A stretch of 64,000 nt of DNA from Emcibacter nanhaiensis (lineage in GTDB: Bacteria > Pseudomonadota > Alphaproteobacteria > Sphingomonadales > Emcibacteraceae), in assembly GCF_006385175.1 (NCBI RefSeq), contig NZ_VFIY01000004.1, forward strand, positions 682,001 through 746,000, read 5' to 3'. The first letter of the stretch is position 1. Every line of letters starts with the position of its first letter. The notes under the pieces were generated by a model. The model was given only the letters and a program-made list of their open reading frames with translations, had not been told where the DNA came from and did no database searches. Positions 11,127 through 17,075 of this stretch are shown piece after piece. A program made the translations under genes and the position numbers.

Positions 11127-11462
11127 ATGCATACCTTCATCGAACTGTGGAACATCAAAGACAGTTGGCGGGCATTAAGCGAGAGTGACCGGGCCGCGTT
11201 TATGGAAAAGCTCGGCCCGGCCATCGCCCAGCTCGCCGAACAGGGCGTCACCTGCAAAGGCTTCGGCTTTGCCGAAGAGGTGGATCACCGCGCCCCCTTT
11301 GACTTCTTTTCCGTCTGGGACTGCACGGAGCGGAAAGCTGCGGAGAAATTCGAGCAGGCAGTCGCCGCCTCCGGCTGGTATGATTATTTTGAGCACAAAA
11401 ATGTCTGTGGCGTGTTGCAGTCACCGGAGGTGATCCTGAAACAGCATATTGAACTTACCTGA
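11127..11462 (+). CDS. Small DUF6616-like protein
   Basis: A 111-residue soluble protein with no signal peptide. It has the feel of a dimeric ferredoxin-like alpha/beta barrel: a strand (HTFIELWNIK), helices (FMEKLGPAIAQLAEQG), then FDFFSVWDC and a C-terminal GWYDYFEHKNVCG. It resembles DUF6616 proteins by my reading; no function is known. AAAGGGGAAGA lies ahead of the ATG. The next gene on the strand, a flavin-dependent halogenase, begins 76 bp later, which suggests an accessory or stress-related link, but this is inference. Confidence 0.65.
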   Translation: MHTFIELWNIKDSWRALSESDRAAFMEKLGPAIAQLAEQGVTCKGFGFAEEVDHRAPFDFFSVWDCTERKAAEKFEQAVAASGWYDYFEHKNVCGVLQSPEVILKQHIELT

Positions 11463-11538
11463 AACTGTTGTCCGCTTTACGGATTTTTCAGTAAATCCGG
11501 CTAGAACAGTCTACAGTAAAAAGCGGAGGAGAGTATCA

Positions 11539-13257
11539 GTGGGTAAAATCACCTGTGACGTGGCCATCATCGGCGGCGGGCCGGCCGGCAGCACGGCGGC
11601 GAGCCTGCTCAAAAAATATAATCCCGGCCTGAATGTGCTGGTGCTGGAACGCGAGGTCTTCCCGCGCGAGCATGTGGGCGAAAGCCAGCTGCCACCGATC
11701 AGCAAAATCCTCGACGAAATGGGTTGCTGGGACAAGGTCGAGGCGGCCAATTTCCCGATCAAGATCGGCGCCACCTACCGCTGGGGCAACAGCCCCGACC
11801 TGTGGGATTTCGAATTTCTGCCCATCGACCAGTTCACCGACGAGCCGCGCCCGGCCAAATACCGGGGCCAGCGCCTGCAGACCGCCTTCCAGGTGGAACG
11901 CGCCCTCTATGACCAGATCCTGCTCGACCATGCCGCGGAACTGGGCGCGGACGTGCGCCAGAACACCAAGGTCAGCAAAATCCTGCACCAAGGCGATCGG
12001 GTCACCGGGCTGGAACTGGACAGCGGCGACATGGTCGAAGCCAAATATTATATGGACGCGTCCGGCAACAGCGGCATTCTGCGCCGCGCACTCGGCGTCA
12101 CGACCCATGCCCCGACCAAGCTGCGCAACGTGGCCTTCTGGGATTACTGGAACAATACCGAATGGGCGGTGTCCATCGGCGTCGGCGGCACCAGGGTGCA
12201 GGTGCTGAGCATCGGCACCGGCTGGATTTGGTTTATTCCGCTCGGCCCCACCCGCACCAGCATCGGCTATATCTGTCCTGCCGACCATGCCAAGAGCTGG
12301 AGCGGCAGCACGGAAGAGCTCTATCTCGACGCCCTCGCCCAGGAACCGTTGATCGCCAAGCTGACGGCCAACGCCAGCCGGGACGGCGACGTCAAGGCAA
12401 CCAAAGACTGGTCGTTCCTCGCCGATCGCATGGTCGGGGAAAACTGGTTCATGATCGGCGAATGCTGCGGCTTTGCCGATCCGATCCTGGCCGCGGGCCT
12501 GACCCTCGCCCATTCCGGCGCCCGGGAAGCCGCCTACTCCATCCTCGCCATGGAAGACGGCTATGACGATCCCGCGTTCCTGAGACAATTCTATGAAGAC
12601 AGCCAGAAAACCCGCATCAACCAGCATATCCGCTTTGCCGATTTCTGGTACAGTGCCAACGGCCAGTTCACCGACCTGCAGGAATATACCAGCGAAATCG
12701 CCAAAGACGCCGGTCTCAAGCTGGACGCCAGGCAGGCGTTCCAGTGGCTCGGCACCGGCGGCTTTACCGGTGATGTTCAGGGTCAGGCCGGACTCGGTGG
12801 CCTTGACCTCGCCGGCGTCAAGCAGATTACCGGCCTGTTTACCGGCCAGGACCTGGACTGGCAGGTCTCGAAATTCAACAAGTTCAAGCTCAATCTCACC
12901 CGCGCCAGGGAAGGCCGCAGCCTGGAGTATAAGGACGGCAAGGTAGAAACCCTCACCTGTTATCACCGCGGCAACAAAAAGCTGGTGGTCACTGGTCTTT
13001 ACGCGCTGATGATCGAGGTGCTGAAACAACACAGCGACATCGCCGACATCGCCCGGGCCCTGCTGCAGCATTATGCCAAAACCGGCGCCGCCGCCACACC
13101 GGAACTCGGCCTGCAGCACGCCCTGCAGGCGCTGGAAGTGATGCTCAACGACGGCTGGGTCACCGCCAAGCTGGACAAGAAGAAGCCGAAGCTGAACCTG
13201 AGTTCCCCCACCGAAGGCCAGATCATCCACAAAAACCGCGACGAAGGTCGGGTTTAA
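11539..13257 (+). CDS. Flavin-dependent halogenase-like oxidoreductase
   Basis: FAD protein of 572 residues. The Rossmann motif GGGPAGS is at residues 12-18 and FPREHVGES at 41-49. Lys75 in NFPIKIGATYRWG aligns plausibly with the catalytic lysine of halogenases. The diagnostic GWIWFIP is at 228-234, matching the flavin-dependent halogenase signature GWxWxIP. A long C-terminal half includes the FAD-site GECCGFADPILAAGL. The GTG start at 11539 is chosen because GGAGGAGAG lies 5 nt upstream; an earlier in-frame ATG (11449) overlaps the previous gene and lacks a site. The substrate (tryptophan, phenol or pyrrole) is undetermined and no flavin reductase is adjacent. Confidence 0.85.
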   Translation: MGKITCDVAIIGGGPAGSTAASLLKKYNPGLNVLVLEREVFPREHVGESQLPPISKILDEMGCWDKVEAANFPIKIGATYRWGNSPDLWDFEFLPIDQFTDEPRPAKYRGQRLQTAFQVERALYDQILLDHAAELGADVRQNTKVSKILHQGDRVTGLELDSGDMVEAKYYMDASGNSGILRRALGVTTHAPTKLRNVAFWDYWNNTEWAVSIGVGGTRVQVLSIGTGWIWFIPLGPTRTSIGYICPADHAKSWSGSTEELYLDALAQEPLIAKLTANASRDGDVKATKDWSFLADRMVGENWFMIGECCGFADPILAAGLTLAHSGAREAAYSILAMEDGYDDPAFLRQFYEDSQKTRINQHIRFADFWYSANGQFTDLQEYTSEIAKDAGLKLDARQAFQWLGTGGFTGDVQGQAGLGGLDLAGVKQITGLFTGQDLDWQVSKFNKFKLNLTRAREGRSLEYKDGKVETLTCYHRGNKKLVVTGLYALMIEVLKQHSDIADIARALLQHYAKTGAAATPELGLQHALQALEVMLNDGWVTAKLDKKKPKLNLSSPTEGQIIHKNRDEGRV

Positions 13258-13334: not shown

Positions 13335-13937
13335 TTACGCTTTGCGACGACGCGCTGCGAAACCCATACCAACCAGGCCGAGCCCCATCAGGCCGAGGGC
13401 TGCAGGCTCAGGCGCATCAACGATTTCCCAGTTGATGTTCAGGCTCCAGTAGTCCAGCAAACCAGCATCACCACCAGCCAGATCTTCGATGTGCAGTGTC
13501 CATGTTCCAGCCAGGGATTCACCAAACAGGGAAGCCAGGGCGTCGTCCGGACCATAAGTGCCGCCACCGTTTGCAGTTTCAGCAGCCACCAGTGAAGCAT
13601 CATCAAAAATCAGCGGGTTGCCAGCAGACAGGTCGTCGCTGTTGCCGAATGTTGAAGCAGGTACACCCGGACGGTCCATCAGGACGATCTCCGTGCCATC
13701 AGCAGATTCCAGAGTGATCAGCAGGTCACCGATCCATGTGTGGTCAATGCCGGCTTCTACTGTGATGCTGGCGATAGATCCTGCATCAGCGATAACGATG
13801 TCGCTGGAAACAGAACCTTCGGCAGGAATCGCAACATCGGTGTCATTGGTGTAAATTGTTGCCATAGCGGCAGACGGCAGCGCAAAACCGGCCATCAGGG
13901 CCACAACAGCGGCTGTATTTTTGAGTGTTTTTGTCAT
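13335..13937 (-). CDS. PEP-CTERM sorted protein with P/Homo B-like domain
   Basis: A 200-residue exported protein. A signal peptide covers residues 1-26 (basic start, hydrophobic core, cleavage near SAAMA). The body resembles a proprotein-convertase P domain: SITVEAGIDHTWIGDLLITLESADGTEI, SLAGTWTLHIEDLAGGDAGLLDYWSLNI. The C-terminus has a canonical PEP-CTERM signal: PEPAALGL, a hydrophobic helix, then ARRRKA. Such proteins are processed by an exosortase encoded elsewhere and sent to the surface or matrix. No protease domain accompanies the P domain. It is convergent with the halogenase gene. Confidence 0.85.
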   Translation of the reverse strand: MTKTLKNTAAVVALMAGFALPSAAMATIYTNDTDVAIPAEGSVSSDIVIADAGSIASITVEAGIDHTWIGDLLITLESADGTEIVLMDRPGVPASTFGNSDDLSAGNPLIFDDASLVAAETANGGGTYGPDDALASLFGESLAGTWTLHIEDLAGGDAGLLDYWSLNINWEIVDAPEPAALGLMGLGLVGMGFAARRRKA

Positions 13938-15711: not shown

Positions 15712-15733
15712 CGGCGCCGGATTTCCGGCGCCG
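15712..15733 (-). terminator. Perfect hairpin after the thioesterase gene
   Basis: CGGCGCCGG / CCGGCGCCG, 9-bp stem with an ATTT loop, 11 bp past the thioesterase stop. There is no T-run directly after it on the minus strand, so it may stabilise the 3' end rather than terminate efficiently. Confidence 0.45.
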
Positions 15734-15743
15734 TCTGTTCCAG

Positions 15744-16523
15744 TTAGTCTCCGTTATCCTCCCCCCGGTGCGGTGAACTTAAGGCCACCATGGTGAAAGT
15801 CCCGCTGCCGCAGAGCCTGCGCTCATCGGCATGAAGGTTTTCCGCCCACAGTTCCACCACCACCCGGATCGAACGCTCACCGGTGCCGATGATACGGGGC
15901 ACGGTGATCATCACCTCCCCGTTCTGGATCTGGCTGGTGAAATCCACCCGGTGGGTGCCGGCCAGGACCACGGTCCTGCGGCAATGACGGGAGGCGGCGA
16001 TAAAGGCCGCCTTGCCCATGGCCGCCAGCGCATTGCCGCCGTAAAGGCTGCCGTAATGGCTGGTCTTTTCCGGAAAAACAATTTCCGCCAGCGCCGTTGT
16101 CTGCCCCGGGACAGGAGCGGCCGGCTCGGCCATGGGCGGCAGAACGCCACCAATCCGGGCCAGGTGCGGACCGACCGCCACCATGTTGAAGATGCCGCGA
16201 CTGCAGTGGCGACGCTCGCCGCTCAGCGGCCCTTCGGCGACCATATCCACCTCCACCGACAGGGACCGCCGCCCGACCCGGACGATTTTCCCCACCAGTT
16301 CGACAATGTCGCCGACATTCACCGGCGCTTCGAAATCAATATGCTCGCAGGAGGCAGTGACGAAATCCACCCGGCCGTGACGCGCCGCGGCGATGAAGGC
16401 GACCTTGTCCATTTGGGCCAGGCCGATTCCGCCAAACAGGGTCCCATGATGGTTGGCGTCACCGGGAAATACCACATCCGCCATGCGGGTCGGATTGACA
16501 AGTGCAGGATGGTTCGGGGTCAT
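15744..16523 (-). CDS. Double-hotdog acyl-CoA thioesterase
   Basis: A 259-residue protein made of two hotdog domains of the YciA/ACOT type. The first (about 10-115) holds DVVFPGDANHHGTLFGG and SCEHIDFEAPV. The second (about 140-245) holds EIVFPEKTSHYGSLYGG and THRVDFTSQI. Such enzymes hydrolyse acyl-CoA to free acid and CoA in the cytosol. The start codon overlaps, as ATGA, the stop of a 28-codon frame that follows a cobalamin riboswitch. B12-dependent expression is therefore likely and unusual for this family. The natural acyl substrate cannot be inferred; a propionyl or methylmalonyl link is speculative. Confidence 0.87.
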   Translation of the reverse strand: MTPNHPALVNPTRMADVVFPGDANHHGTLFGGIGLAQMDKVAFIAAARHGRVDFVTASCEHIDFEAPVNVGDIVELVGKIVRVGRRSLSVEVDMVAEGPLSGERRHCSRGIFNMVAVGPHLARIGGVLPPMAEPAAPVPGQTTALAEIVFPEKTSHYGSLYGGNALAAMGKAAFIAASRHCRRTVVLAGTHRVDFTSQIQNGEVMITVPRIIGTGERSIRVVVELWAENLHADERRLCGSGTFTMVALSSPHRGEDNGD

Positions 16524-16606
16524 GACCGCGCCTCCCTGCTTCGATAAAAACGCAGCCGCACGGGGCCGCCACTCAGGATCAATTTCAGGTTATTTAATTC
16601 AGGCAT
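16520..16606 (-). CDS. 28-residue leader-like small ORF between riboswitch and thioesterase
   Basis: Starts MPELNNLKLI and ends REARS, with a stop that overlaps the thioesterase start (ATGA). AAGGGA lies about 8-10 nt upstream. The position after the riboswitch and the overlapping stop/start suggest translational coupling, or a remnant of a longer gene. No family is recognised. Confidence 0.4.
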   Translation of the reverse strand: MPELNNLKLILSGGPVRLRFYRSREARS

Positions 16607-16662
16607 TGGACTTATTCCCTTGTTAACAGGGGGCAAAGGCCTGGAAGAAACATGCAGAACGG

Positions 16663-16682
16663 CCGTCCCGGAACCGGGACGG
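16663..16682 (-). promoter_or_regulatory. 20-nt perfect palindrome downstream of the cobalamin aptamer
   Basis: CCGTCCCGG / CCGGGACGG with a 2-nt centre lies about 50 nt 3' of the aptamer and 57 nt before the small ORF. It has no T-run, so it is not a classic terminator. It may be part of the riboswitch expression platform. Confidence 0.5.
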
Positions 16683-16730
16683 AACAAATGCAGCTCTCCA
16701 CCGGGGCACCCCGCCCGAGGACGATTACAA

Positions 16731-16912
16731 GGTCGCGGCAGGTCTCCTGGCTCGCAGGTCGGCACCGTGATCCTGCCTTCCCGAAACCGGATGGTTCCAG
16801 TGGCATTGATGAATAACGGCTCGCTGCTTACAGTTGCGGGGGCAGCTCCGGCATTGTCCCATGAACGCACCGGATTCCCTCTTAGCTCCTTCCCCGTTCA
16901 GGGGAGAAGAAC
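16731..16912 (-). promoter_or_regulatory. Cobalamin (adenosylcobalamin) riboswitch
   Basis: Read on the minus strand, the B12 aptamer signature is present in order: AAGAGGGAATCCGGTGC, then TGCCGGAGCTGCCCCCGC and AACTGTAAGCAG, the CACTGG segment, CGGGAAGGCAGG, and the closing B12 box GCCAGGAGACCTGCC near the 3' end. The only genes downstream in this direction are the small ORF and the hotdog thioesterase. avtA runs the other way, so its 5' region overlaps the riboswitch promoter area. Identification is by primary-sequence motifs; the expression platform is not resolved. Confidence 0.92.
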
Positions 16913-17075
16913 CAACGACGGGGAGAAGATGACGTCTAAAGAGATCAGTGTCAATTTTTATATTGCAGTTGCGAAACAGCTTATGAAAGCCATTCCCGGC
17001 TTTTTCGGCATGGCCTTGCCAGATAATTTGCGCTATACCGCTTTCAGCCACCAAACAGATTACAAGGTCGTAACA

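Follow-up and report, generated by a model that had tools for sequence, protein, structure and literature searches.

Organization of the riboswitch unit

We analyzed a 64,000-nt stretch of the Emcibacter nanhaiensis contig NZ_VFIY01000004.1 (hereafter referred to as the window; genome G000, 4.0 Mb, 98.7% complete) and focused on a minus-strand unit in which a cobalamin (B12) riboswitch is followed by a 28-codon frame and a double-hotdog acyl-CoA thioesterase (TE). Its features, by window position, are as follows:

16720-16932, minus strand: cobalamin (B12) riboswitch aptamer (RF00174, 118.3 bits, full length)
16707-16716, minus strand: GGGCGGGGTG box just 3' of the aptamer, proposed anti-sequestor strand (putative function)
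16607-16641, minus strand: RBS hairpin region GGCCTTTGCCCCCTGTTAACAAGGGAATAAGTCCA in a metE-type leader, proposed sequestor with the Shine-Dalgarno AAGGG
16520-16606, minus strand: 28-codon frame MPELNNLKLILSGGPVRLRFYRSREARS at the position of metE in relatives, proposed translational relay from its start/stop context
15744-16523, minus strand: TE, double-hotdog acyl-CoA thioesterase, 259 aa, D39 in the N-terminal hotdog (PF03061 twice)
15712-15733, minus strand: hairpin GGCGCCGGAAATCCGGCGCC 3' of TE, probable end of the unit (-22.1 kcal/mol)

The aptamer was the sole Rfam match in the 64-kb window (cmscan, E = 4.7e-29, model positions 1-189 complete), and its 118.3 bits compare with a gathering cut-off of 31.5 bits for RF00174. 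This bears out an earlier note on this DNA, which had described a complete B12 aptamer on the minus strand with a 28-codon frame and a double-hotdog thioesterase behind it; both frames were found on that strand, and the 5' boundary of the aptamer, 16932, lies 20 bases past the 16912 given there. The only other cobalamin riboswitch of the genome precedes a TonB-dependent receptor that, by sequence, looks like btuB.

The next gene after TE encodes an aromatic-acid-type MFS transporter (15612-14260), and the riboswitch unit probably ends with TE, since the 131-base gap to the transporter contains the strong hairpin at 15712-15733, directly downstream of which no T-run is present. The earlier note had also considered a terminator separating the aptamer from the thioesterase. 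The lone candidate was a weak terminator-like hairpin (16569-16543, minus strand, GCGGCCCCGTGCGGCTGC then GTTTTTAT, -10.9 kcal/mol) within the 28-codon frame, and we rejected it in this role because the scan returned 3 sites against 1.9 +/- 1.5 expected, a count not above chance. This hairpin could cause polarity when the 28-codon frame is untranslated.

Elsewhere in the window, a 602-aa FAD-dependent halogenase-like protein is encoded at 11449-13257 on the plus strand (Trp_halogenase, 131 bits; the CmlS model scored under its cut-off); the gene comes after an aminotransferase gene, and its product is a possible tailoring enzyme. The protein encoded at 13335-13937 on the minus strand is secreted and combines a proprotein-convertase P-domain with a PEP-CTERM sorting signal.

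The leader, the 28-codon frame and metE

We further compared the 60 bases 5' of the 28-codon frame with the leaders of other riboswitch-controlled genes and found that they match leaders of metE, which encodes the B12-free methionine synthase (z = 7.3 for L071, taken from its first ATG, 5.7 for L038 and 4.8 for L046), whereas the controls (btuB, nrdH, a TonB receptor and two other riboswitch-controlled genes) gave z values of -0.8 to 2.1. Values of 3.2 and 4.2 were obtained against one mesX leader and one direct TE leader, respectively. Judged by sequence, the leader between the aptamer and the start codon is of the metE type, and because these 60 bases match metE leaders, the ATG of the 28-codon frame is placed at the metE start site.

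The GGGCGGGGTG box is nearly invariant, with a core that is invariant across 13 aligned leaders, and, across the 10 leaders tested, it can base-pair with the 5' arm of the RBS hairpin (-13.8 to -21.9 kcal/mol). The window leader has two near-isoenergetic folds (-51.5 and -51.1, a difference of 0.4 kcal/mol); its single-sequence fold is no better than shuffles (z = -0.3 and -0.8), and its RBS hairpin has a z of -0.8, compared with a mean of -1.9 over 17 leaders. Box/arm complementarity and the two modelled alternative folds fit a translational switch. When cobalamin is plentiful, the aptamer would favour the hairpin, in which the ribosome site of the 28-codon frame is masked; at low B12, the GGGCGGGG box would pair with the 5' arm of that hairpin and the 28-codon frame would be translated. 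The stop codon of this frame overlaps the start of TE as ATGA (16523-16520), through which ribosomes would be handed to TE, and in several relatives, including Thalassospira, the metE stop overlaps the TE start. We infer the relay through the small frame from this ATGA, and TE also has its own Shine-Dalgarno (GGGAGG, shortly 5' of its ATG).

A search for MetE in genome G000 gave no PF01717 match at E = 1e-10 (the best was partial, at 20 bits). MetH is present, split into two frames, and CbiC was not found in the genome, which together with the lack of MetE suggests that this genome depends on outside B12. We also asked whether the 28-codon frame is what remains of metE at the sequence level, and rejected this after its comparison, as protein and as DNA, with the two ends of 13 metE genes yielded nothing convincing (one of the 39 protein tests reached p = 0.007). 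Since the frame holds no detectable metE sequence, the argument for a loss of metE is one of position and leader; no intermediate with a partial metE was found. On these grounds, it is likely that metE was lost here, and we predict with equal confidence that the riboswitch now regulates TE. The metE connection, which the earlier note did not draw, explains the riboswitch and the 28-codon frame alike. Compared with known cobalamin riboswitch-metE units (RF00174), the window shares the full aptamer, the metE-type leader and start context and the low-B12 logic, but it is without metE, and its predicted target, a thioesterase, comes after a 28-codon frame. Overall, the locus is probably best explained as a metE-type cobalamin riboswitch that lost metE and now controls a double-hotdog thioesterase serving B12 shortage.

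The thioesterase and its company in relatives

TE matched PF03061 (4HBT) in two stretches (91.4 bits, cut-off 20.6, E = 4.6e-26). In an alignment of 28 sequences (27 homologues and the window), the N-terminal hotdog keeps the motif NHH-x-TLFGG (TMFGG in one), and the Asp after it is invariant (28/28; D39 in the window), whereas the matching position of the C-terminal hotdog is occupied by Gly, Thr or Ala. The catalytic residue of Haemophilus influenzae YciA is D44 (PMC10560148), and D39 would be its counterpart by the shared motif, so that each double hotdog likely has one active site. With YciA/Acot-type hotdog thioesterases, TE shares the 4HBT fold and the TLFGG...MD motif with the catalytic Asp, but it differs in consisting of two fused hotdogs with the Asp only in the first and in sitting behind a B12 riboswitch; at 72.6 bits, it also falls well short of the 162-bit cut-off of the YciA equivalog NF007970, a family resemblance only. 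Like TE, ACOT7 (PDB 6VFY, 4ZV3) has two hotdogs per chain and an MD aspartate in only one aligned hotdog, although the similarity is weak (78 bits) and the order is reversed in the alignment, the Asp domain of ACOT7 being second. The best full-length solved homologue is PDB 2GVH (250 bits, 49% identity), which carries only the locus tag AGR_L_2016p as its name in the PDB copy and is 88% identical to the Shinella protein encoded directly after a riboswitch at locus L067.

We next examined 28 TE loci, comprising the nearest homologues from genomes and plasmids with the window included, in which riboswitches were located with Rfam and metE by tblastn. The plasmid sample holds near-copies (e.g., L044 and L070), so that loci are not independent events, and among the 28 the order riboswitch-metE-TE occurred in 13 (Thalassospira, Aquabacter, Enterovirga, Sinorhizobium, Shinella, Ensifer and genomes G090, G071, G065 and G457), a riboswitch directly before TE in 6 (the window, Sphingomonas NY01, S. 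medicae pSU277_4, Shinella sumterensis, Azospira and Comamonadaceae OS-4) and no riboswitch in reach in 9 (one on a contig end). The linkage spans Alpha- and Betaproteobacteria. In the 18 genomes searched, each full-strength MetE match (about 500 bits) was the one preceding TE. From these sequences, TE appears usually to sit behind metE, the gene that is missing from genome G000. A SAM-I/IV riboswitch match (L071:6404-6543, minus strand, 49.4 bits) precedes a metA-like gene beside the riboswitch-metE-TE unit of genome G457.

The TE tree places the window together with Thalassospira (riboswitch-metE-TE) and genome G068 (no riboswitch), with support of 95/94. Arrangement labels were clustered, and the direct form requires at least four changes, suggesting that riboswitch and TE were brought or kept together repeatedly. 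It is unlikely that the riboswitch is a relic left after metE loss, with TE translated from the adjacent ribosome site GGGAGG and perhaps transcribed from a promoter of its own. The aptamer is complete, at 118 bits (mostly 103-136 in relatives), the leader retains the box, the sequestor arm and a Shine-Dalgarno, a search between aptamer and TE gave no sigma-70-like promoter, and a riboswitch stands directly before TE in other lineages too, even though TE has a Shine-Dalgarno of its own, a terminator-like site lies within the 28-codon frame, and homologues without a nearby riboswitch exist, the closest (74% identical) among them.

The genes around TE further pointed to B12 shortage. In four of the direct riboswitch-TE loci (Sphingomonas, S. 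medicae, Shinella and Comamonadaceae), mesX (DUF1852) and mesD lie close by; they are annotated as such in three of them, and we read the unnamed protein and xecA1 of OS-4 as the same pair. MesX/MesD form a B12-independent methionine synthase system, in a report that names neither a thioesterase nor a riboswitch (PMC7857596), and B12 strongly represses a DUF1852 gene of Acinetobacter (PMC12892962). As neighbours of riboswitch-TE in these four loci, MesX/MesD belong to the same B12-shortage set as TE. In Shinella and Sinorhizobium, the unit adjoining the TE locus is nrdHIEF with its own riboswitch, and in Azospira ribonucleotide reductase genes follow the riboswitch-TE unit. TE is thus found among genes whose products stand in for B12-dependent enzymes, and because its homologues share units or neighbourhoods with such isoenzymes (metE, mesXD, nrd), expression of TE at low B12, as the earlier note had it, is the natural expectation. 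The set expressed at B12 shortage would comprise TE, MetE or MesX/MesD (for MetH) and B12-independent ribonucleotide reductases (for NrdJ), and TE may be a recurring, apparently undescribed member of this response.

TE could alternatively be a partner of MetE in methionine synthesis, for instance by clearing thioesters derived from homocysteine or by releasing CoA for one-carbon flow, and would then persist here only as a remainder of the metE operon. This would accord with metE being its commonest partner (13 loci, with start and stop often overlapping) and with the alternative methionine synthase genes mesX/mesD adjoining the direct loci of Sphingomonas, S. medicae, Shinella and Comamonadaceae, but TE keeps an intact active-site motif in genomes without MetE (the window, G068, G070 and five of the window's family), and the Azospira gene leads into ribonucleotide reductase genes rather than a methionine synthase gene, so we give this alternative a low probability.

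Four plasmid or contig regions (L042, L041, L044 and L066) gather riboswitch-controlled B12-independent genes, namely metE or mesXD, TE and nrdHIEF, and look like portable B12-independence islands.

Candidate substrates and implications

The earlier note had proposed that TE relieves a build-up of methylmalonyl- or propionyl-CoA and had seen in a nearby prpE a link to propionate. The prpE link was not supported, given that this neighbour, scored as propionate-CoA ligase, reaches 716 bits where the cut-off is 955, that a divergent valine-pyruvate aminotransferase (avtA-like) gene lies between, and that no such neighbour was seen in those homologous loci for which the genes were listed.

We then turned to the B12-dependent mutases. 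Genome G000 encodes a methylmalonyl-CoA mutase (1298 bits, cut-off 876). Its second mutase adjoins genes for a zinc-ADH-type reductase and for an acyl-CoA dehydrogenase, a setting expected of the ethylmalonyl-CoA pathway, and by this context is assigned as ethylmalonyl-CoA-mutase-like. A strong methylmalonyl-CoA mutase match was found in 17 of the 18 TE genomes, and an ethylmalonyl-type match (about 440-450 bits) in 6 of 18. A mutase was present in all nine riboswitch-TE genomes tested, compared with 157 of 241 in the class (p = 0.023, ignoring kinship and genome size), a weak association. Under cobalt limitation in Methylorubrum, methylmalonyl-CoA rises 35-fold, ethylmalonyl-CoA 6-fold and propionyl-CoA 3.6-fold, while mesaconyl-CoA (1.45x) and methylsuccinyl-CoA (0.49x) do not accumulate (PMC2773004). 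The idea of methylmalonyl-/propionyl-CoA relief is thus reasonable, as the genome has mutases and cobalt limitation raises these pools in Methylorubrum. Since the mutases are without a B12-free substitute in the set, TE would most likely hydrolyse the acyl-CoAs that pile up at stalled mutases (methylmalonyl-, ethylmalonyl- or propionyl-CoA, or neighbours), freeing CoA. By elimination and precedent, we give this relief of mutase-substrate pools close to an even chance.

The known substrate preference of YciA calls for caution in this respect. In Methylorubrum, YciA acts on methylsuccinyl- and mesaconyl-CoA, and other CoA esters of the ethylmalonyl pathway are not considerably converted (PMC10560148); its expression releases methylsuccinate and mesaconate, with a sixfold higher yield at low cobalt (PMC9529712, PMC10560148). 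This precedent, together with the reductase and dehydrogenase genes flanking the second mutase of genome G000, would allow TE to hydrolyse these pathway products instead of mutase substrates. We regard that as improbable, because the ethylmalonyl-type mutase occurs in only 6 of the 18 TE genomes, against 17 for methylmalonyl-CoA mutase, and because mesaconyl- and methylsuccinyl-CoA fail to accumulate under cobalt limitation (1.45x and 0.49x; PMC2773004).

Returning to hydrolysis of mutase-stalled acyl-CoAs, we tentatively propose, at somewhat below an even chance, a dedicated B12-shortage thioesterase across Alpha- and Betaproteobacteria that would act on these esters in place of a substitute mutase, with a short relay frame at the place of metE keeping the riboswitch coupled in the window. 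The known targets of B12 riboswitches are mostly B12 synthesis, B12 uptake and B12-free isoenzymes. In the open-access literature searched, no link between this thioesterase and B12 riboswitches was found; the parts are of known kinds, and what looks new is their repeated combination and the form without metE. If true, the proposal would add a third strategy to the B12-shortage set, clearing what an idle B12 enzyme leaves behind, a task akin to the one posed by human methylmalonic acidaemia, and would provide a testable function for the structural-genomics orphan 2GVH. It also suggests a route by which a riboswitch may be handed over from a lost gene to the next gene via a small overlapping frame.

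In the Thalassospira genome G528, which also has riboswitch-metE-TE, a cobalamin riboswitch match that is weak yet above the cut-off (34.7 bits; contig C133, L086:645-815) lies directly before both methylmalonyl-CoA mutase genes.
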